DNA from: Aeromicrobium sp.
GTDB taxonomy: Bacteria > Actinomycetota > Coriobacteriia > Anaerosomatales > Anaerosomataceae
DNA: 32,780 bases
Direction of reading: 5' to 3'
NCBI GenBank assembly: GCA_015351705.1
Contig: JADIIM010000022.1
Span: forward strand, 1 to 32,780
Below are positions 1,108 to 31,176 of this stretch, one piece after another. Under the pieces are notes generated by a model. The model saw nothing but the letters and a program-made list of their open reading frames with translations. It ran no database searches and was not told where the DNA came from. Position 1 is the first letter of the stretch. Every line of letters starts with the position of its first letter. The position numbers and the translations under genes were made by a program.

Positions 1108-2898
1108 ATGGCCCATCTGTCCTGGTATCGCAAGTACCGGCCGCAGACCTTCTCCGACGTGGTCGGCCAGGAGCACATCGAGCGCACGCTCAGCAACGCC
1201 GTGTCCGAGGGGACCGTGTCCCATCTCTACCTGTTCACCGGCCCGCGCGGCACCGGGAAGACGACCACGGCGCGCATCCTTGCCAAGGCGCTCAACTGCG
1301 AGCAGGGGCCCACGCCGAAGCCGGACGACACGTGCGACCAGTGCCGTGCGATCGCCGATGGCGTGCACCCCGATGTCCAGGAACTCGACGCGGCCTCGCG
1401 CCGCGGCATCGATGACGTTCGCGAGCAGATCATCGGGCGAGTGAGCTTCGCGCCATCGCGAGGGACCTGGAAGGTCTACATCATCGACGAGGTGCACATG
1501 CTCACGCGCGAGGCGTTCAACGCCTTGCTCAAGACCTTCGAGGAGCCACCGCCCAACACGATCTTCATCCTTGCCACCACCGATCCGCACAAGGTGCCGG
1601 AGACGATCCACTCCCGGTGCCAGCGGTTCGACTTCCGCCGCATCTCGGTGGAGGACATCGTCGGGCGCCTGCGCCACATCGCCGATGCCGAGGGCGTGAA
1701 CGTGCCCGACGGCGCGCTCACGCTCATCGCGCGACACGCCCGCGGCGGACTGCGCGACGCGATCGCCACGCTCGAGCAACTCGCATCCTTCGGCGGCGGC
1801 GTGATCGCGCTCGACGACGTCGAGGGCCTCCTCGGCGAGGTGGATGCCGAGCTGCTGTTCGGGGCGACCGAGCTGATCATCGAGCGAGACGTGGCCGCGG
1901 CGTTCCGGCTGGTTGCCCGGCTCGCCGAAGAGGGCATCGACATGTCCGAGTTCGTGAAGGGGCTCGTGCGCCACATGCGCGACCTCTTCGTGATCGCGGC
2001 GGTGGGGGCCGATGGCGCCGTGGACACCACGAGTGAGGACCTCGGCCGCATCGAGAGCCAGGCCGCGCGGCTGGGGGCAGAGCGCACCGCTCGCGTGCTC
2101 GACGTCCTGGCGCGGCTGACCACCGAACTGCGCTACGCCGCGGACCAGCGCCTTACCGTGGAGGTCGCCCTCACGCGCATGGCCCGCCCGCAGGCCGACC
2201 TGACCCTGGAGGCGCTCGCCGAGCGGGTCACCGCGCTCGAGGCCGGGGCGCCCATCCGTGAGATGCTCGCGCCGGCGCCGGTCGTCCCACAGCCCGCTTC
2301 CCCGGCGAAGGCGTCCAAGCCGGCTCGGGCCGAGTCGTCCCCACCCGCGGTGAAGGCCGGAGAGGATGCCGCCGCGCCGCCCGGTGCGGCCGAGGCGTCT
2401 ACGCCGCCGCGCGCGGAGGCTCCGGCCGGCGGCCTGGACGTCGCTGCGGTCAAGCGGGCATGGCCCGCCGTTCTCGCCGAGTTCAAGAAGGTGCGCCCGT
2501 CGCGCTCGCACCTGTTCGCCGGCACCGAGGTGGAGCTCGCCGACGGCACGTTGGTGATCGAGTTCCCCGCGGACCAGGCGTTCGCGATGAAGCTCGCCGC
2601 CGAGGGCGATACCCTTGAGCTGTTGCGTCGTAGCACCGCAAGCGTGCTCGGCGTGGAACCGGCGATCGAGTCTCGCCTCGGCCGCGCTGGTTCCTCCGAC
2701 GGGAGCCGGGCGGTCCCCGCGCAGGCGCCTGTCGAGCCGGGAGCGGCGCCGGACACGGCGGCATCGGTCGGACCGGCACAGGACGGCGGGTCCACAGCCG
2801 CTGAAGGTTCCGCGCCCGAGGCGCCCGCGGGCCTGGAGGCGCAGGTCATCGCCGAGCTCGGCGCCGAGATCATCGAGGACGTCACACCCGAGAGTTAG
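1108..2898 (+). CDS. dnaX: DNA polymerase III subunits gamma/tau
   Basis: This is the 596-residue clamp-loader ATPase that loads the sliding clamp and couples the polymerase to the helicase. Residues 1-180 show the classic DnaX start (WYRKYRPQTFSDVVGQ), Walker A GPRGTGKT at 45-52, Walker B IIDEVHML at about 127-134, the sensor region LATTDPHKVPETI and the SRCQRFDFRR arginine-finger element. The zinc module is incomplete: C64, C76 and C79 are present, but the position of the usual second cysteine (73) is Asp. From about residue 365 the protein becomes an Ala/Pro-rich linker and then a C-terminal domain (about 435-505), as in full-length tau. GAGGAG precedes the ATG at a good distance. No clear slippery heptamer for gamma was seen. 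It starts the dnaX-ybaB-recR cluster common in bacteria. Confidence 0.97.
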   Translation: MAHLSWYRKYRPQTFSDVVGQEHIERTLSNAVSEGTVSHLYLFTGPRGTGKTTTARILAKALNCEQGPTPKPDDTCDQCRAIADGVHPDVQELDAASRRGIDDVREQIIGRVSFAPSRGTWKVYIIDEVHMLTREAFNALLKTFEEPPPNTIFILATTDPHKVPETIHSRCQRFDFRRISVEDIVGRLRHIADAEGVNVPDGALTLIARHARGGLRDAIATLEQLASFGGGVIALDDVEGLLGEVDAELLFGATELIIERDVAAAFRLVARLAEEGIDMSEFVKGLVRHMRDLFVIAAVGADGAVDTTSEDLGRIESQAARLGAERTARVLDVLARLTTELRYAADQRLTVEVALTRMARPQADLTLEALAERVTALEAGAPIREMLAPAPVVPQPASPAKASKPARAESSPPAVKAGEDAAAPPGAAEASTPPRAEAPAGGLDVAAVKRAWPAVLAEFKKVRPSRSHLFAGTEVELADGTLVIEFPADQAFAMKLAAEGDTLELLRRSTASVLGVEPAIESRLGRAGSSDGSRAVPAQAPVEPGAAPDTAASVGPAQDGGSTAAEGSAPEAPAGLEAQVIAELGAEIIEDVTPES

Positions 2899-2923
2899 GC
2901 TGTTCTCACGGAACGGAGACCCT

Positions 2924-3241
2924 ATGAAGCCGAACATGCAGAACATGATGAAGCAGGCGCAGCGCATGCAGGCCGAGATGGCCCGCGTGCAGGAGGAGCT
3001 CGCTGACGAGCGCGTGGAGGCGTCGGTCGGCGGCGGGGCGGTCAAGGTCGTCATGACCGGTGCGCTCACGGTGGACTCGGTTGCCATCGATGCCTCGGCG
3101 CTCGACCCCGACGACATCGCGATGCTCGAGGACATGGTGGCGGCAGCCGTCAACGAGGCGCTGCGCCAGGCGCAGGACCTCGCTGGCCGGAAGATGAGTG
3201 CCGTCACCGGCGGACTCGGCCTTCCCGGAGGGCTCTTCTAG
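2924..3241 (+). CDS. ybaB: YbaB/EbfC family nucleoid-associated protein
   Basis: The 105-residue protein has the family layout: a Met/Gln-rich N-terminal helix ([20 protein letters not shown]), a central strand region with [11 protein letters not shown], and a C-terminal helix ending in a Gly-rich tail ([10 protein letters not shown]). YbaB forms dimers that bind DNA and is nearly always found between dnaX and recR, as here. The start at 2924 is chosen for CGGAGAC just upstream and for the family N-terminus; two further Met codons follow closely. The recR start lies 2 bases after its stop, so the two are probably translated together. Confidence 0.95.
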
Positions 3242-14382: not shown

Positions 14383-14967
14383 ATGTCACGTGCGCGCTCC
14401 ATCGCCCACGCGGGGATGATAGCGGCCGTGTACGCCGCGTTCACGCTGGTGGTCATACAGAGCCCGCTCGGGTACGGCCCCGTGCAGTTCAGGGTCTCCG
14501 AGGCGCTCACGGTGGTGGCGTGCCTGACACCCGCTGCGATCCCCGGCCTGTGGCTCGGGACTGCGGTGGCTAACGCCTACCTCGCCACCCAGTTCGGTGT
14601 CCTTGCGGTGCTCGATGTGGTCCTCGGCTCGACCGCGTCCCTTCTCGGCGCGTGGTGGGCGTGGCGTCATCGGGAGCGGGCGGCGCTGGCCCTGGCCGGT
14701 CCGGTGGTGGCCAACGCGCTCATCGTGCCGGCGTACCTGCCGCTCATGCTCGCCGGACTTGCCGGTGTGGACTTCTACCGTGTGCCGGCGCTGGGCGTCG
14801 ATGCGTCGGGGGCGTGGCTCACGATGTACCTGTTCGGCGTGGTGGCCGTCGGGCTTGGCCAGGCGGTCGTCGTCTACGGACTCGGCATGCCCCTGCTGCA
14901 CCTCATGCGTCGCCTCGGCATCGACCGGCTGCTCGCCGAGTCGCAACGGGGGGGCGGCCGTGACTGA
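14383..14967 (+). CDS. queT: QueT-like ECF transporter substrate-binding membrane protein
   Basis: The 194-residue protein is very hydrophobic with about five to six helices. The N-terminal half carries the family motif GPVQFRVSEALTVV (about residues 26-39) followed by PAAIPGLWLGTAVAN, and the second half has LDVVLGSTASLLGAWWAW and VVVYGLGMPLL. These match the QueT (formerly DUF988) S components of energy-coupling-factor transporters, thought to import queuosine precursors. The transported molecule is inferred from the family. No EcfA or EcfT genes are adjacent and no preQ1 riboswitch is visible, as the gene lies within an operon. ATG 14383 is chosen 1 base after the kinase stop; GTG 14374 is an alternative. 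Confidence 0.8.
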   Translation: MSRARSIAHAGMIAAVYAAFTLVVIQSPLGYGPVQFRVSEALTVVACLTPAAIPGLWLGTAVANAYLATQFGVLAVLDVVLGSTASLLGAWWAWRHRERAALALAGPVVANALIVPAYLPLMLAGLAGVDFYRVPALGVDASGAWLTMYLFGVVAVGLGQAVVVYGLGMPLLHLMRRLGIDRLLAESQRGGGRD

Positions 14968-16756
14968 GGCCGCAACGTCCCATCCGGAGCGTCAACCGCT
15001 CCTGAGCTCGCCCGGCGACTTGTGCGACGGATGCGGTGCCTGCGTACGAATCTGTCCCGTGCGGGCGCTTCGGGTCGTCGGCGACCGGGTGGAGATCATC
15101 CCCGAGAAGTGTGTGGCGTGCGGCCTGTGCGTGCGAGAGTGCTCGCGCGGCGGCCACTCGGTACGTGACGACATTCCGGCCGTCGAGGCGCTCCTGCGCT
15201 CGAGGACGCCGGTCGTCGCGCTCCTTTCGACCGAGTTCATCGCGGCCCTTGCGCCCCTGACCGTCGTTCAGATCGAGCGGGCGCTCGAGGCGCTCGGCTT
15301 CTGCGCGGTGGAGACGACCGTCCTCGGCGAGGAGATGGTGGCCGAGAGCTATGAGCACCTGCATGGCCGTGATGACACCCTGGTGAGCATCCGCTCGACC
15401 TGCCCGGTGGTGACCTCGTTCGTGCGTGCGTATCACCCGGCGCTGGCCGGAGCACTCGCTCCGATCGTCCCGCCGTACGTGGCGCAGGCACGCCTGATCC
15501 GCGCGCTGTATCCGGAGGGCGTCGCGATCGTCTACGCCGGACCGTGTTACGCGCGCAAGGACGAGGTGTACGAACCTCAGCTTGTCGGCGTGATCGATGT
15601 GGCGGTCGACTTCACCGAGCTCAGGCGCTTGATCGACCGCCATGCGGCATCGCCGTCCCACACCCGGCTCACCGCGCCGCCACTCCAGCGCCCGCGGGTC
15701 CTCAAGGAGGTCTCCCTCACCGACGGGTTCCCGCGCAAGACCGTTGCCGAGCGCCAGCTCTCCGGCTGCGGCGTGGAGACGGTGCGCGGTCTTGCCGAGC
15801 TTGAGCGGCTCCTGTGCGCCGTCGAGGCGGGAGAGGTCGCGCCGCGGATCATCGACGCGCTGAGCTGCGAGGGCTGCATCGACGGCCCTGCGGTGGCGCC
15901 CGGCCTGTCGCTGTATGCCAAGCGCACGATCGACGCGAGTGCGCGTGAGGACCGCGGTGCGACCCGGGTGAGCACTCGTGCCCTTCTCGAGGTGCTGCCG
16001 TCGGTCGATCTTCGTCGCTCGTTCGATCCCGACCCGGTGGCGCTCGTACGGCCGGAGGATGCCGAGGTCGATGCCGTGCTCGCGGCGGGGGGTATCGATC
16101 GGGAACAGGCACCGGACTGTGGGGCGTGTGGATGGGCCACGTGTGTCGAGCACGCGGTGGCCATCTACCGTGGAGACTCCACATGGGACCTCTGCCTGCC
16201 GCTGCAGCGCTCCCTGCTGAAGGACCGCTCGTCCCGTCTGGAGGCATGCGAGACCCTCGATCCGCTGACCGGGGCCTGGAACCGTCGCTCCTTCGCCGAC
16301 CGACTCAGCCTTGAGCATGCGCGACACGCTCGCTACGGTACACCGCTCGCGGTGCTCGCCCTCGATGTGGACGGTCTCGGCGCGGTCAACGATCGGCTCG
16401 GCGAGGCGGCGGGTGACCGCGTCCTGCGAGAGATCGCCTCGCGGCTGGCCCGTGAGGTGCGCTCGACCGACCTGGTGGCGCGCTGGGGTGGCGACCGGTT
16501 CTCGGTAATCGTGCCGGGCATCTCCAAGACCGCCGCGTTCGCGGTCGCGGAGAAGCTGCGTGTGGCGGTCTCCGGAGCGACGATCCCCGTCGAGAGCGAC
16601 GGGTATACACATGACGTGTCTGTGACGGTGTCGGTGGGCGTGGCAGCCGCGGGTCCGGGTGCGCCGGACCCGGGAGAGATGCTCGAGGCCGCCGATACCG
16701 CGCTTCTGCAGGCGATCGCCGCCGGAGGTGACCAGGTGCGCCTGGCTCCCGGCTAG
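14960..16756 (+). CDS. [FeFe]-hydrogenase-like iron-sulfur protein fused to a GGDEF domain
   Basis: The 598-residue protein has four parts. (1) Two 4Fe-4S motifs: C22, C25, C28, C32 and C51, C54, C57, C61. (2) A domain like the large subunit of sensory-type [FeFe] hydrogenases (about 80-330), with the H-cluster cysteines recognisable: C148 in RSTCPVV, C196 in GPCYARKDE, and C303 and C306 in LSCEGCIDGP. (3) A small 4Fe-4S domain with C387, C390, C395 and C412. (4) A GGDEF domain (about 432-598) with DPLTGAWNRRSF, signature GGDRF at 510-514 and an inhibitory-site motif RSTD at 501-504. Sensory group C/D hydrogenases are known to be tied to signalling domains, so the iron-sulfur part probably senses hydrogen or redox state. 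Glu of GGDEF is Arg here, so cyclase activity is doubtful. GTG is preceded by GGGGGGG, and the gene overlaps queT by 8 bases. Confidence 0.86.
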   Translation: MTEAATSHPERQPLLSSPGDLCDGCGACVRICPVRALRVVGDRVEIIPEKCVACGLCVRECSRGGHSVRDDIPAVEALLRSRTPVVALLSTEFIAALAPLTVVQIERALEALGFCAVETTVLGEEMVAESYEHLHGRDDTLVSIRSTCPVVTSFVRAYHPALAGALAPIVPPYVAQARLIRALYPEGVAIVYAGPCYARKDEVYEPQLVGVIDVAVDFTELRRLIDRHAASPSHTRLTAPPLQRPRVLKEVSLTDGFPRKTVAERQLSGCGVETVRGLAELERLLCAVEAGEVAPRIIDALSCEGCIDGPAVAPGLSLYAKRTIDASAREDRGATRVSTRALLEVLPSVDLRRSFDPDPVALVRPEDAEVDAVLAAGGIDREQAPDCGACGWATCVEHAVAIYRGDSTWDLCLPLQRSLLKDRSSRLEACETLDPLTGAWNRRSFADRLSLEHARHARYGTPLAVLALDVDGLGAVNDRLGEAAGDRVLREIASRLAREVRSTDLVARWGGDRFSVIVPGISKTAAFAVAEKLRVAVSGATIPVESDGYTHDVSVTVSVGVAAAGPGAPDPGEMLEAADTALLQAIAAGGDQVRLAPG

Positions 16757-16765
16757 GAGGGCCTG

Positions 16766-17788
16766 ATGCACGAGGCGCTGCTCTGGGAGCCTGAGGGCGA
16801 GCGCATCCACTGTTTGCTCTGCCCGCATGACTGCCGCATCGCCGAGGGGGCACGTGGGATCTGCGGCGTACGCGAGAACCGCTCGGGCAGACTGCACGCG
16901 CTCACGTACGGACTGGTGTCGTCGGTCGCGGCAGATCCCATCGAGAAGAAGCCGGTGTTCCACTACCGGCCGGGGACGTTCGCGCTCTCACTCGGCAGTG
17001 TGGGCTGTTCGATGCGCTGTGGGCACTGTCAGAACTGGCGTATCAGTCGCGCGCGCCCCGGCAGCGACGACGGTCTCGAGCGCCTCGCGCCGGAGCGTGT
17101 CGTGCCACTGGCGCGCGAGAGTGGGTGCGCCGGTGTGGCGTTCACCTACAACGAGCCCGTGATCTGGATCGAGTACGTACTCGACGTCGCGCGCGCGTGC
17201 CGTGAGGCCGGCCTGTACACGGTCATGGTGACCAACGGCTACATCACCACGGCGGGGCTGGACCTCATCGGGCCGTACATCGATGTCTGGCGGGTCGATG
17301 TGAAGGGCTTCAACGACACGACATACCGGGAGTTCTGTCGTGCGCGGTCCGTGCATCCGGTGCTCGAGGCGGCCGAGCGCGCCAAGAAGCGCTGGGGGAT
17401 GCATCTCGAAGTCGTCACGAACATCGTACCCACCGTCAACGACGATGATGACACCCTGCGCTCGATCGCGCGGTGGATCGCGGCATCACTCGGCCCGCTG
17501 ACGCCGTGGCACGTGACCCGCTTCTTCCCGTATCTGGACATGGCCCACCTGCCGCCCACGCCGATCGCCACGCTCGAGCGCGCCATCCAGACCGGTGCCG
17601 AGGAGGGACTCTGCTTCGTGTACGCCGGCAACGCACAGGTGCCCGGCGGGGAGGACACGGTGTGCCCGTCGTGCGGCGCGGTCGCCATCGGGCGCTCCGG
17701 GTACCGTATCATCAGGCATGAGACGATCGCGGGTGCGTGCACAGCGTGCGGTGCGGCACTCGGCATCATCGAGGAGGCGATTGCATGA
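16766..17788 (+). CDS. amrS: AmmeMemoRadiSam-system radical SAM enzyme
   Basis: The 340-residue protein belongs to the pyruvate-formate-lyase-activase-like radical SAM group. N-terminal cysteines C16, C19, C23 and C33 (HCLLCPHDC and GICG) are followed by YGLVSSVAADPIEKKPVFHY, typical of AmrS. The SAM cluster motif is C81, C85, C88 in GCSMRCGHCQNW, then AFTYNEPVIWIEY and the DVKGFNDTTYREF strand. The C-terminus has two CxxC pairs like a zinc ribbon. In the named system AmrS accompanies AMMECR1 and MEMO proteins; neither is in this window, so its substrate is unknown. A very strong TAGGAGGG precedes the ATG. Its stop overlaps the start of the selenoprotein gene in an ATGA, which ties the two together. 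Confidence 0.88.
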   Translation: MHEALLWEPEGERIHCLLCPHDCRIAEGARGICGVRENRSGRLHALTYGLVSSVAADPIEKKPVFHYRPGTFALSLGSVGCSMRCGHCQNWRISRARPGSDDGLERLAPERVVPLARESGCAGVAFTYNEPVIWIEYVLDVARACREAGLYTVMVTNGYITTAGLDLIGPYIDVWRVDVKGFNDTTYREFCRARSVHPVLEAAERAKKRWGMHLEVVTNIVPTVNDDDDTLRSIARWIAASLGPLTPWHVTRFFPYLDMAHLPPTPIATLERAIQTGAEEGLCFVYAGNAQVPGGEDTVCPSCGAVAIGRSGYRIIRHETIAGACTACGAALGIIEEAIA

Positions 17789-18480
17789 GCGGAAGCGGTC
17801 ACGAGACAGCGGCGTCGGGGACCGGTGGCGGTGCCGGAGAGGCGGTACGGCCGCGGGTCCTCGTCTTCTTCGACTACACGTGACCCTTCTGCTACGTCGA
17901 CCAGTTCCGGTTCGACAGGTTGCGTGAGGAGTTCGACGCCGAGCTCGTCCTGGTGCCGTTCGAGCTCAGGCCGGACGCTCCGCCCGAGGGGCTCTCGGCC
18001 AAAGCCGAGGGGCTCACACATTCGGAGCGCGTGGAGGCACGGCTGCGCGAACTGGCCGCCGAGGCCGGTGCGCCGATGCTCGACATCGACCTCGTGCCCA
18101 ACACGCACATGGCGATGACGCTCGGGGAGTTCGCGCGCGACCTCGGCGAGGAGACGCACCGGGCGGTGCATGCTGCGATCTTCGGCGCGTACTACGGGGA
18201 GGGCCGCGACATCGGGAGGCGCGAGGTCCTCCTGGATGTCGCGACAGAGCAGGGACTCGACGCCGCCGAGGCCGGTGCCGCGCTCGATGACGGCCGCTAT
18301 GACGAGAGACTGCACGAGTTCGTCCATCTCGCGTTACATCTCGGCATCGACACCACGCCGAGTGCGCTGATCTGCAACGAACTGCTGATCGGCTCGCGTC
18401 CGTACGGCGTCTTGCGCGAGGCGGTCAAGCGGTGCCTCATCACGCCGCAGAACATCGGGGAGAGCGACGAAACGCTATAG
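17785..18480 (+). CDS. FrnE/DsbA-like thioredoxin-fold selenoprotein (UGA read as selenocysteine)
   Basis: The gene reads as one 231-residue protein only if the in-frame TGA at 17881-17883 (codon 33) is decoded. That codon falls exactly on the first active-site position of a DsbA-family CxxC: FFDYT-[UGA]-PFCYVDQ, where relatives have DxxCPWCY. Downstream homology continues without a break (a helical insert with EARLRELAAEAG, then the cis-proline loop DTTPSALI with P192 and a C-terminal helix). C36 supplies the second redox residue, so the motif is U-P-F-C. A SECIS-like hairpin follows the UGA. There is no signal peptide, so it should be a cytoplasmic thiol/selenol oxidoreductase, as FrnE proteins are. 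It overlaps amrS by 4 bases. The alternative is a nonsense mutation or sequencing error, or a truncated protein from TTG 17920, but that would lack the active site. Confidence 0.86.
17896..17916 (+). promoter_or_regulatory. SECIS-like hairpin downstream of the UGA codon
   Basis: GTCGACC (17896-17902) pairs with GG plus TCGAC (17909-17916, one T bulged at 17911) around the 6-base loop AGTTCC. The loop starts 20 bases after the UGA and has G in its second position. These values fit what I recall of bacterial SECIS rules (loop about 16-37 bases from UGA, a G early in the loop, short upper stem). It would be the SelB binding site that directs selenocysteine insertion. Confidence 0.68.
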
Positions 18481-18481: not shown

Positions 18482-18538
18482 GGTCAGTGCTTCCTGCAGT
18501 ACGTGACATGCCGGCCGCCAGGCCGTGAAGGGACGCCC

Positions 18539-19795
18539 GTGTATCCGACCGTCGTCATACCTACGTTCTGGACCCGTCGCCGCACACGCGGGGGCCGCGG
18601 GGGCCGTCGCGAGCGGTTCTCCTACGACCACCCGACCCCGCTCGGCGAGCCGGGAACGCTGCCTGACTGCCTCAGGTCGCTTGACGGTGTCACCGGCCTG
18701 GGCAGGGTCGTGGTCATCGTGGCGGTCACGGACGACTCGATAGCGCACGCTGCCGAGGACCAGGTGCGCGAGATCCTGGACGAGTTCCCCGGTCTTGATG
18801 CGTGGGTGTTCGGCTCTGCCGAGGCCGGCTCGCTGCACCGCCGGATGGAGCAGCTCGAGTTCGCAGACCTGCTGGGAGGGGCCGGGCTGTCCGGGTACGG
18901 CGGCGTGCGTAACGTCGGCCTGATGCTGGCTGCTGTCTTCGGCAGCGACGCCGTGGTCTTCCTTGACGACGACCAGGTGATCACCGATCCCGCGTTCCTC
19001 GTCCGGGGCCTCGAAGGCCTCGGTGAGCAGGTGGGCCCGAAGGGCCAGCCGGTGCTTGCCAAGAGCGGCTACTACGTCGACGACCAGGGCGCCTGCAAGA
19101 TTCCCGATCCCCGCCCGTGGCACGACACGTTCTGGCGACAGACCGAGTTCTACAATCGCGCCGTCTCGGCGCTCGTGGCCCCGAGCCCGCGCCTCAAGCC
19201 GAGTCCGCTCGCCTTCGGCGGCTGCATGGCGCTGCACCGCGACATGTACTGCAACGTCCCGTTCGACCCGTGGGCTGTTCGCGGGGAGGACATCGACTAC
19301 GTGATCAACGCGCGCATGCATGGCGGCGACGTGTTCCTCGATGCCGAGTGGTCGGTGGTGCACCGTCCGCCGGCGCCTGCGAGCGCCGCAGCGCTGTTCA
19401 GGCAGGACGTTTACCGCTTCATCTACACACACCGCAAGCTCGAGTTCTCGAAGTCGCAGGTGGACCTGCGACAGGTCACCGCTGACGCGCTCATGCCGTA
19501 CCCGGGGCATCTGGTGGACTCCTCGGTGAACTGGCGCACCCGCCTGACCGCGCTGATGCGCGGTGTCGCCGGGCCCGAGCGCGGTGAGTACCTTGCCGTC
19601 GCGCGCCGCTCGGTGCCGGAGGCCCAGGAGTACGCGCGCAAGAACTGCGAGCGCTACTTCGCCTTCCAGCGACGTTGGCCGATGCTCATGGACCGGCTGT
19701 GGGAGGACATCGCACTCAAGTCGCTCTTCACCGGCGAGCGGCACGTGGACCGCGGCGCCATCACCGGTCGCTTCCCGGTGATCCGCGCCGACTGA
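18539..19795 (+). CDS. GT-A fold glycosyltransferase (GT2-like)
   Basis: The 418-residue protein begins with TVVIPTFW, the first strand of a GT-A nucleotide-sugar domain, followed by GYGGVRNVGLMLAAVF and an acidic metal site FLDDDQVI (D143-D145). Further on come FGGCMALHRDMY and the RGEDIDYVINARMHGG acceptor/catalytic segment, as in family 2 glycosyltransferases. The last 120 residues are helical and not recognised. There is no membrane helix, so it acts in the cytoplasm. Donor and acceptor are unknown. The GTG at 18539 is favoured by GAAGGGA upstream and by the domain starting right after it; GTG at 18503 would add 12 residues. It is 58 bp after the selenoprotein gene and 5 bp before the GNAT gene. 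Confidence 0.72.
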   Translation: MYPTVVIPTFWTRRRTRGGRGGRRERFSYDHPTPLGEPGTLPDCLRSLDGVTGLGRVVVIVAVTDDSIAHAAEDQVREILDEFPGLDAWVFGSAEAGSLHRRMEQLEFADLLGGAGLSGYGGVRNVGLMLAAVFGSDAVVFLDDDQVITDPAFLVRGLEGLGEQVGPKGQPVLAKSGYYVDDQGACKIPDPRPWHDTFWRQTEFYNRAVSALVAPSPRLKPSPLAFGGCMALHRDMYCNVPFDPWAVRGEDIDYVINARMHGGDVFLDAEWSVVHRPPAPASAAALFRQDVYRFIYTHRKLEFSKSQVDLRQVTADALMPYPGHLVDSSVNWRTRLTALMRGVAGPERGEYLAVARRSVPEAQEYARKNCERYFAFQRRWPMLMDRLWEDIALKSLFTGERHVDRGAITGRFPVIRAD

Positions 19796-28774: not shown

Positions 28775-29785
28775 TCAGCAGATCCTCGGCAGTTGCTCTC
28801 CCACAAGCATGTCCATGATGCGGGTGGCGCCGAAAGCCGTCTTCACATACACCTTGCCCGCAGGTGCAGCGGCCACCTCGCCGATGATCGCGGCGTCGGC
28901 GCCGTAGGGTGCCGAGCGCATCGCCGAGAGCGCCGCCTCGGCCTGGTCGGCGGGGACGACGGCGACCATCTTGCCCTCGTTGGCGACCTGGAAGACGTCA
29001 TAACCGAGCATCTCGGACGCGCCGCGGACCTGCTCGCGCACCGGCACGTCGGTCTCGTTGACGGTGATCGACACACCCGAGGCGTCGGCGAGCTCATTGA
29101 GCGTGCTGGCCAGACCGCCCCGCGTGGGGTCGCGGAAGCAGCGCACGTCGTGGGCGGCGTCGAGCACCGCGGCGACGAGGTGGTTGAGCGGTGCGGCGTC
29201 GGTCTGGATGCTCGTTGAGAACTCGAGGCCCTCGCGGGTAGAGACGACCGCGATGCCGTGATCGCCGAGCGTGCCCGAGAGCACCACGACGTCGCCGGGC
29301 CTGCAGTGCGAGCCGGAGAGGTCCACGCCGTCGGAGAGTACGCCCACGCCGGCCGTGTTGATGTACACGCCGTCGCCGTGACCGCGCTCGACCACCTTGG
29401 TGTCGCCGGTGACGATGCGGACGCCCGCCTCGGCGGCGGCATCGTGCATCGACACGAGGATGCGCTTGAGGTCGTCGACCGGCATGCCCTCTTCGAGTAC
29501 GAAGCCCACCGAGAGATAGAGCGGCCGGGCGCCTGAGGTCGCGACGTCGTTCACCGTGCCGCACACGGCGAGGCGACCGATGTCGCCGCCCGGGAAGAAC
29601 AGCGGCGAGACCGTGTAGGTGTCGGTCGAGAAGGCCAGCCGCGAACCGGGGAAGTCGAGCGCCGCGGCGTCGTCCATCCGGAGCAGCACCTCGTCACCGA
29701 AGCCGGCCACGAAGACCTCCTCGATGAGCTCCTTCATCATGGTGCCGCCGCTGCCGTGGGCGAGCAGGATGCGGTCTGAGCGCAT
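28775..29785 (-). CDS. hypE: Hydrogenase maturation protein HypE
   Basis: The 336-residue protein uses ATP to turn a carbamoyl group on its C-terminal cysteine into cyanide, the ligand of the NiFe site. It ends in PRIC, with C336 at the same place and length as in E. coli HypE. The N-terminal part has LLAHGSGGTMMKELI and DDAAAL, and the central part GDTKVVERGHGDGVYINTAGVG, as in PurM/SelD-like ATPases. AGGAGTAGAGG lies before the start. It follows hypD by 6 bases. The NiFe hydrogenase itself is not in the window. Confidence 0.96.
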   Translation of the reverse strand: MRSDRILLAHGSGGTMMKELIEEVFVAGFGDEVLLRMDDAAALDFPGSRLAFSTDTYTVSPLFFPGGDIGRLAVCGTVNDVATSGARPLYLSVGFVLEEGMPVDDLKRILVSMHDAAAEAGVRIVTGDTKVVERGHGDGVYINTAGVGVLSDGVDLSGSHCRPGDVVVLSGTLGDHGIAVVSTREGLEFSTSIQTDAAPLNHLVAAVLDAAHDVRCFRDPTRGGLASTLNELADASGVSITVNETDVPVREQVRGASEMLGYDVFQVANEGKMVAVVPADQAEAALSAMRSAPYGADAAIIGEVAAAPAGKVYVKTAFGATRIMDMLVGEQLPRIC

Positions 29786-29791
29786 GCGCCT

Positions 29792-30889
29792 CTACTCCTT
29801 GCCGTAGTCGGTGTAGCGATAGTACGCCGCGCAGCTGCCCTCGCTCGAGACCATGCACGGACCGACGGGGTGCTCCGGGGTGCAGCCCCTGCCGAACAGT
29901 CTGCACTCGAACGGGAGGACCACGCCTCGAAGCACGTCGCCACACTGGCAGCCCGTGATCTCACGTGGCTCGGGTGGTGTCACCGGAATGCGCACGCGGG
30001 CGTCGAAGTCAGCGAACTCGGGCCGCAGCGCAAGCCCGGTCCCGGGGATGACGCCGATGCCCCGCCATTCCGAGTCGCACGGCTCGAACGCCCGCTCGAT
30101 GGCCGCGAGTGCGGCGGGGTTGCCCTCGGGGCTTACGCCACGCCCGTAGGCGATCTCCACCTCGGCGCGGCCCTCGGCGACCTGCGTGGCGAGCATCCAG
30201 ACGCCCTGGAGGACGTCGACCGGCTCGAAGCCGGTGATCACGCTCGGGACGCCGTACTCCTCGGCTAAGAAGCGGTACGGCTCCAGGCCGATGATGGTGG
30301 ACACGTGGCCGGGCAGGATGAAGCCGGTCACGCGGACCTCGGGGTCGTTCACGAGCGCGCGGAGCGCGTCGGGGACCGTCTTGTGGAGCGAGAGCGCGGA
30401 CCAGTTGGGCAGCCCGCGCCGGGCGGCCTCGGCGATGGTGAGTGCAACGGTGGGCGCGGTGGTCTCGAAGCCCACGCCGAGGAAGACGACGTGCCGGTCC
30501 GGTTCACGCTCGGCGACGGCGAGCGAGTCGAGCGGCGAGTAGACCACGCGGACGTCCCGGCCGTCGGCCTTCTCGGCGGAGAGTGACGAGTAGGAGCCGG
30601 GAACCTTCATCATGTCGCCGAAGGTGGCCAGCGTGACGCCCGGCTGGCGCGCCATCTCGATCGCGAGGTCGATGTCGGCGTTGGCAGTGACGCAGACCGG
30701 GCAGCCAGGGCCCGACAGCAGCGTGATCGTCTCGGGCATGAGGCCGCGCAGACCGTGCTTGGCGATCGCCATCGTGTGCGTGCCGCAGACCTCCATGAGC
30801 GTGCAGGGGGTGTGAGCGGTCTCGCGGATGGCGTCTACCAGGCCGCGCGCGATCTCCGGGTCGCGGAAGCCGTCGAGGAGTCCGCTCAC
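29792..30889 (-). CDS. hypD: Hydrogenase maturation protein HypD
   Basis: The 365-residue iron-sulfur protein forms the scaffold on which Fe(CN)2CO is built together with HypC. Key cysteines are visible: C35 in MEVCGTHTM, C63 and C66 in GPGCPVCVT, and the C-terminal 4Fe-4S set in ITGCQCGDVLRG, PFECRLFGRGC and GPCMVSSEGSCAAYYRY. VGFETTAPT is also conserved. The GTG start overlaps the hypC stop by 4 bases, so HypC and HypD are probably made in step. Confidence 0.97.
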   Translation of the reverse strand: MSGLLDGFRDPEIARGLVDAIRETAHTPCTLMEVCGTHTMAIAKHGLRGLMPETITLLSGPGCPVCVTANADIDLAIEMARQPGVTLATFGDMMKVPGSYSSLSAEKADGRDVRVVYSPLDSLAVAEREPDRHVVFLGVGFETTAPTVALTIAEAARRGLPNWSALSLHKTVPDALRALVNDPEVRVTGFILPGHVSTIIGLEPYRFLAEEYGVPSVITGFEPVDVLQGVWMLATQVAEGRAEVEIAYGRGVSPEGNPAALAAIERAFEPCDSEWRGIGVIPGTGLALRPEFADFDARVRIPVTPPEPREITGCQCGDVLRGVVLPFECRLFGRGCTPEHPVGPCMVSSEGSCAAYYRYTDYGKE

Positions 30890-31176
30890 GACGCGGGGGC
30901 CTCGGACGCGCCGGACCCCTCAGCCTCGGCGAGCTCGGCCTCGATGTCCTCGGCGGTCTTGATCCCCATGGAGCGCAGCATCTCGAGGGACTCGGCGGCG
31001 AACTCCTCGTCGATGATCTGGATCGCGAAGCCCGCGTGCACGAGCACGTGGTCGCCCTTCTTGGCCGCCGGTGCCATCATCGTGCAGATGTGACGCTTCA
31101 CGCCGAGGATGTCGACCTCGGCCATCTGGATCTCGTTGGGCTCACTGACAAGCTGCGCCGGGATGGCGAGACACAT
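30886..31176 (-). CDS. hypC: Hydrogenase maturation chaperone HypC
   Basis: The 96-residue protein begins MCLAIPAQ, the HypC signature with the functional Cys at position 2. It continues with AEVDILGVKRHICTMMAPAAKKGDHVLVHAGFAIQIIDEE, the OB-like fold of the family. The tail of about 20 residues after the fold is Glu/Ala-rich (EAELAEAEGSGASEAPAS) and longer than usual. AGGAGG precedes the ATG. HypC shuttles the iron ligand complex between HypD and the hydrogenase large subunit. It is the first gene of the minus-strand hypCDE group, now separated from hypF by the plus-strand toxin-antitoxin remnant. Confidence 0.96.
   Translation of the reverse strand: MCLAIPAQLVSEPNEIQMAEVDILGVKRHICTMMAPAAKKGDHVLVHAGFAIQIIDEEFAAESLEMLRSMGIKTAEDIEAELAEAEGSGASEAPAS

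Follow-up and report, generated by a model that had tools for sequence, protein, structure and literature searches.

Introduction

The described systems closest to the gene studied here are DsbA-like proteins of COG2761, which we take to be the FrnE group. Members of COG2761 with a UxxC motif were recognised as selenoproteins in a 2005 survey of the Sargasso Sea, which contributed nine sequences (PMC1088965), and DsbA-like selenoproteins also figure in a 2006 list from bacterial genomes (PMC1794560) and, as 'DsbA-like protein form 1', in a 2026 selenoprotein inventory (PMC13188914). The original prediction, made from DNA sequence, had noted that selenocysteine (Sec) forms of DsbA/FrnE-like proteins were already on record, and these sources bear it out. 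In the portions of the survey and the inventory drawn on here, the members come from a marine metagenome and a few genomes of Deltaproteobacteria and Clostridia (PMC1088965, PMC13188914). With them our gene shares the Pfam family (PF01323), a predicted Sec as the first residue of UxxC and a SECIS element just downstream, but it belongs to a syntenic set that spans an order of Coriobacteriia-related bacteria, and its product has an extra Cys pair.

The FrnE protein of Deinococcus radiodurans (DR_0659, PDB 5CNW) is active as a reductase on insulin and DTNB, and regeneration of its active site by a C-terminal CXXXXC motif has been proposed (PMC8945050). Our protein resembles it in its full-length fold, its CP(W/F)C-type site and its predicted cytoplasmic location; D. 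radiodurans FrnE, however, has Cys in the active site together with CXXXXC, whereas the protein described here would have Sec and a pair of cysteines (Cys197/Cys217) that lie 20 residues apart. The Streptomyces coelicolor protein SCO1869 (PDB 3GL5, a probable DsbA oxidoreductase) has the same fold, is 26% identical and comes from the same phylum, yet is a Cys form according to its PDB sequence match. Another thioredoxin-like selenoprotein model, that of the Rcas_1661 family (seleno)lipoprotein (NF041057, DsbG-like), was the sole NCBIfam match; its score of 24.8 bits lies below the cut-off of 190, and we rejected membership of this family.

The window, i.e. the whole stretch of DNA that was analysed (32,780 nucleotides), belongs to a 2.07-Mb draft genome of 60 contigs that is 96.75% complete. 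Its relevant features are as follows.

16766..17788, plus strand: AmmeMemoRadiSam-type radical SAM protein, overlapping the start of the selenoprotein gene (ATGA) and adjacent to it at 33 of 35 loci
17785..18480, plus strand: predicted FrnE/DsbA-like selenoprotein gene, 231 aa, UPFC active site (reading with TGA as U, Pfam, orthologs)
17881..17883, plus strand: UGA predicted to be read as Sec (residue 33), the first position of the UxxC motif
17890..17892, plus strand: Cys36, which ends UPFC and would be its resolving residue; unchanged in every ortholog
17896..17916, plus strand: predicted SECIS hairpin of bacterial type, whose apical loop (AGUUCC, 17903-17908) lies 19 nt downstream of the UGA
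18373..18375, plus strand: Cys197, located five residues beyond the Pro in a TP motif that presumably forms the cis-proline loop; conserved without exception in 33 aligned orthologs
18433..18435, plus strand: Cys217, the other auxiliary cysteine, likewise without variation in these 33 orthologs
18503..19795, plus strand: downstream glycosyltransferase-like gene, found beside the FrnE-like gene at 33 of 35 loci

Results

Translated with TGA as U, 17785-18480 yields 231 residues with a single UGA at residue 33 (context FFDYT-U-PFCYV) and a TAG stop, and its ATG overlaps the stop codon of the upstream gene as ATGA (17785-17788). The frame is open except for the TGA, which occupies the place of the first Cys of CPxC, just as originally predicted, and the claim that homology continues past it is upheld by the Pfam model DSBA (PF01323), which matches residues 25-214 with 90.3 bits (curated cut-off 25.6; E 1.7e-25). 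Hence, the UGA, with 198 codons after it, sits inside one continuous domain. The table-11 list of open reading frames contains solely 17920-18480 here (TTG start, 186 aa), from which the active site is absent, in line with what had been foreseen for a standard gene caller. Since the NCBIfam scan of the protein found no fitting model, standard annotation is expected to shorten the gene in this way and to lose the active site.

Orthologs were sought in the window's own genome and 60 relatives, with matches in 39 of the 61 genomes, 34 of them (window included) essentially full length. Scoring the catalytic column wherever it is present left 35 genes, again counting the window. Exactly one in-frame TGA, always in this same column, was found in 21 of them, while Cys, as TGC or TGT, stands there in the other 14, two of which are truncated by contig ends. 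The original prediction had proposed asking whether relatives have Cys or Sec at position 33, and had named random stops elsewhere in the gene as evidence against it; the column does alternate between UGA and Cys, and none of the 35 orthologs, when read through, has a stop at any other place. When the Sec/Cys label is mapped onto a protein tree of 33 orthologs, it requires six changes (bootstrap trees give five to six), at least two of which are forced by well-supported branches, and one Sec form and one Cys form, for example, are sisters within one family. This argues that Sec has been gained or lost repeatedly in the order.

A single-protein search of genome contigs returned one true ortholog with a name, from Coriobacteriaceae bacterium EMTCatB1, along with distant DsbA-like proteins. 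NCBI places this bacterium in Coriobacteriia, and the order of the window accordingly falls within that class or near it. In other classes of the phylum, nine FrnE-like genes (L120, L121, L123, L125, L126, L129, L130, L132, L134) have a UGA at the same catalytic position, in UP(F/Y/W)C motifs, each followed by a hairpin, and some genomes from these classes also carry a Cys paralog (L136, L137). These UPxC proteins with their hairpins suggest that the family is wider than the published tables, in the portions cited above, would indicate. In relative G054, only the C-terminal end of a FrnE-like gene follows the radical SAM gene (L100 at the end of contig C26, L099 at the start of contig C17), and this fragment is to be explained by a deletion within the gene or else by faulty assembly where the contigs end.

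The predicted SECIS hairpin (17896-17916) pairs as GUCGACC-AGUUCC-GG(U)UCGAC, with a 6-nt loop that has G in loop position 2 and a 7-bp stem with one bulge, and its minimum free energy ranges from -7.5 to -12 kcal/mol, depending on the flank folded. As such, it satisfies the constraints of a published bacterial SECIS model (PMC13188914). Judged from the window sequence alone, its stability is unremarkable against dinucleotide shuffles (z 0.1 to -0.6). Across the orthologs, the core GACC[AG]GUUC[AC]GG is found in all 21 Sec forms and in 2 of the 14 Cys forms; the 12 Cys forms on the tree lack it, and the two further ones that retain it, both from one genus, look like the outcome of a recent Sec-to-Cys change. 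All 21 Sec forms likewise keep the two inner C-G pairs of the hairpin. Moreover, codon 5 (GTC or GTG, both Val) covaries with codon 11 (GNN or CTN) such that the pair stays C-G or G-C, a compensatory exchange whose four G-C cases come from one genus and are probably one evolutionary event.

For the Arg that follows the loop, each of the 21 Sec forms uses CGG or AGG, two codons that make up 126 of the 465 Arg codons (27%) in the window's genes. The residue eight positions after Sec, encoded by TTC in the SECIS loop, is Phe throughout the Sec forms (21/21) and in 2 of 14 Cys forms, the other 12 having His, Pro, Ala or Val. That Phe is universal among the former and rare among the latter is what one would expect if the RNA holds the loop codon.

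The AlphaFold model (pLDDT 92.5) has D. radiodurans FrnE as its best structure match in the PDB (TM 0.82; Z 25.9 over 203 residues; rmsd 2.4; 26% identity), followed by SCO1869 (Z 24.9), and D. radiodurans FrnE is also the best PDB match by sequence. In the model, a helix (14-30) follows model position 13, which corresponds to residue 33, so that the active site comes to lie at the start of helix 1. There is no N-terminal hydrophobic stretch in the protein, which fits a cytosolic enzyme. The C-terminal CXXXXC motif is not found in the 231 residues either, the second pair here being Cys197/Cys217; given that some FrnE proteins are without CXXXXC (PMC8945050), this does not exclude membership of the FrnE family. 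The Cys197/Cys217 pair was not seen in the more distant members from other classes.

Both flanking genes are conserved (see above), and such synteny within one order is weak evidence for a shared pathway; a literature search on AmmeMemoRadiSam and AMMECR1/MEMO1 found no function for the radical SAM neighbour. Further upstream, the window encodes (14597-16756) 4Fe-4S and iron-only-hydrogenase-like domains joined to a C-terminal GGDEF domain, whose GGDEF part precedes the FrnE-like locus in most relatives. From its domains, the product is possibly a redox or hydrogen sensor that makes cyclic di-GMP. A gene for a QueT transporter (PF06177; 14374-14967, plus strand) overlaps with its end the called start of this hydrogenase/GGDEF gene, and the true start of the latter probably lies downstream of the annotated one (14597).

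As for the Sec machinery, the window's genome has selD, itself with an in-frame UGA (context KAG-U-AAK), on the minus strand of contig C29 (L023, about 2082-3120). It also has, on contig C14 (L112, 1792-1794, minus strand), a formate dehydrogenase-like gene with one in-frame UGA at ARI-U-HSSTV, presumably the usual Sec site of this enzyme. A UHxP entry in the selenoprotein inventory, in the part cited here, supports this assignment of the formate dehydrogenase Sec site (PMC13188914). By contrast to selD, the genes selA, selB and tRNA-Sec are absent from the 2.07-Mb draft when searched for with family HMMs, a covariance model and the DNA of the closest relative's selABC block. The original prediction had counted a genome without sel genes against itself; in the draft, this applies to selA, selB and tRNA-Sec and not to selD. 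The best selB matches were rejected as EF-Tu/EF-G-like GTPases and the best tRNA-Sec matches as Ser, Trp, Leu and other tRNAs, and whatever else came up was put down to chance similarity. A second selD-like match in the window (28949-29680) encodes an AIRS-domain protein beside hypC and hypD and is probably HypE rather than SelD; the HypE-like, HypD and HypC genes (28775-31176, minus strand) are part of a [NiFe] hydrogenase maturation cluster.

Of the 60 relatives, 48 have selA, as do 18 of the 21 genomes with a Sec form; in relatives, tRNA-Sec (anticodon UCA), confirmed in four of these relatives, adjoins selA and selB. The gene order in the closest relative is selD, a toxin-antitoxin-like pair, selA, selB and tRNA-Sec. 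In relative G007, selA-selB-tRNA-Sec together take up about 3.5 kb. Contig C29 has selD and the same toxin-antitoxin-like pair, then ~1.2 kb of non-matching sequence with an unrelated ORF, and then ends. As the three missing genes cluster beside selD in relatives and C29 ends nearby, one assembly gap explains their absence, and we consider this the likeliest reason for it.

Discussion

We are highly confident that 17785-18480 encodes a cytosolic thiol-disulfide oxidoreductase of the FrnE family whose nucleophilic Cys of CPFC is replaced by Sec. This reading, drawn from sequence comparison and a modelled fold, agrees with the FrnE/DsbA-like Sec protein originally predicted and brings together the Sec/Cys column, the SECIS element, the other UGA genes, the Sec machinery of relatives and the FrnE fold.

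The absence of selA, selB and tRNA-Sec from the assembly bears on another scenario, in which the gene has recently died since the lineage lost selA-selB-selC and UGA now terminates, the family being a selenoprotein elsewhere. That the ~1.2 kb of C29 past selD and the toxin-antitoxin-like pair is not the sequence beside the closest relative's selA may be read in the same sense. Yet the three UGA genes (FrnE-like, selD, formate dehydrogenase) are otherwise intact, as is the window's SECIS core, and the clustering of the missing three genes means that a single gap at a contig end suffices, so to our minds recent death of the gene is quite improbable. We give still less credit, next to none, to a sequencing error or an ordinary nonsense mutation, as might be suspected from a single stop in a draft genome: the same TGA recurs in 20 other orthologs, which are spread over seven families of the order, and always in the catalytic Cys column. 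Its presence in the nearest relative's ortholog, which is from another genus of the same family and 73% identical, excludes sequencing error. Nor do we see any real prospect that the true product is a shorter protein from TTG 17920 without the active site. Although this is the ORF that a table-11 caller lists, TTG at that codon occurs in only 2 of the 21 Sec forms and is not a conserved start, and the part that would be removed holds the conserved FFDY-U-PFCYVD segment together with strand 1 and the greater part of helix 1.

For the Sec-containing FrnE-family enzyme that we favour, a mechanism may be envisaged in which the hairpin just after the UGA recruits SelB and Sec-tRNA for insertion of Sec. 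The selenolate of Sec33, deprotonated at neutral pH, would attack substrate disulfides, if the reaction runs in that direction, and Cys36 would resolve the mixed selenenylsulfide. Cys197/Cys217 may then accept oxidising equivalents and regenerate the site, as is thought for the CXXXXC motif of D. radiodurans FrnE.

This kind of selenoprotein has been known since 2005, and 17785-18480 adds a well-supported member to it. What is new, as read from the genomes compared, is the order-wide syntenic set of Sec and Cys orthologs with its repeated Sec/Cys switching, the extra invariant Cys pair and, apparently, a Phe that is held by the RNA signal. Whether these features combine into one picture, in which the RNA signal shapes the enzyme through repeated Sec/Cys interchange and a SECIS-held Phe, with a second Cys pair specific to the lineage, is a proposal we put forward tentatively, with rather less than even confidence. 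If true, the orthologs would form a natural series for measuring both the benefit of selenium to a FrnE enzyme and the cost of SECIS to its protein sequence. For annotation, the finding means that a seemingly broken gene is to be described as an intact one. It also matters for work on how bacteria exchange sulphur and selenium, and an order-wide Sec/Cys set at one conserved locus provides a clean natural experiment on how a cytosolic disulfide enzyme uses selenium.
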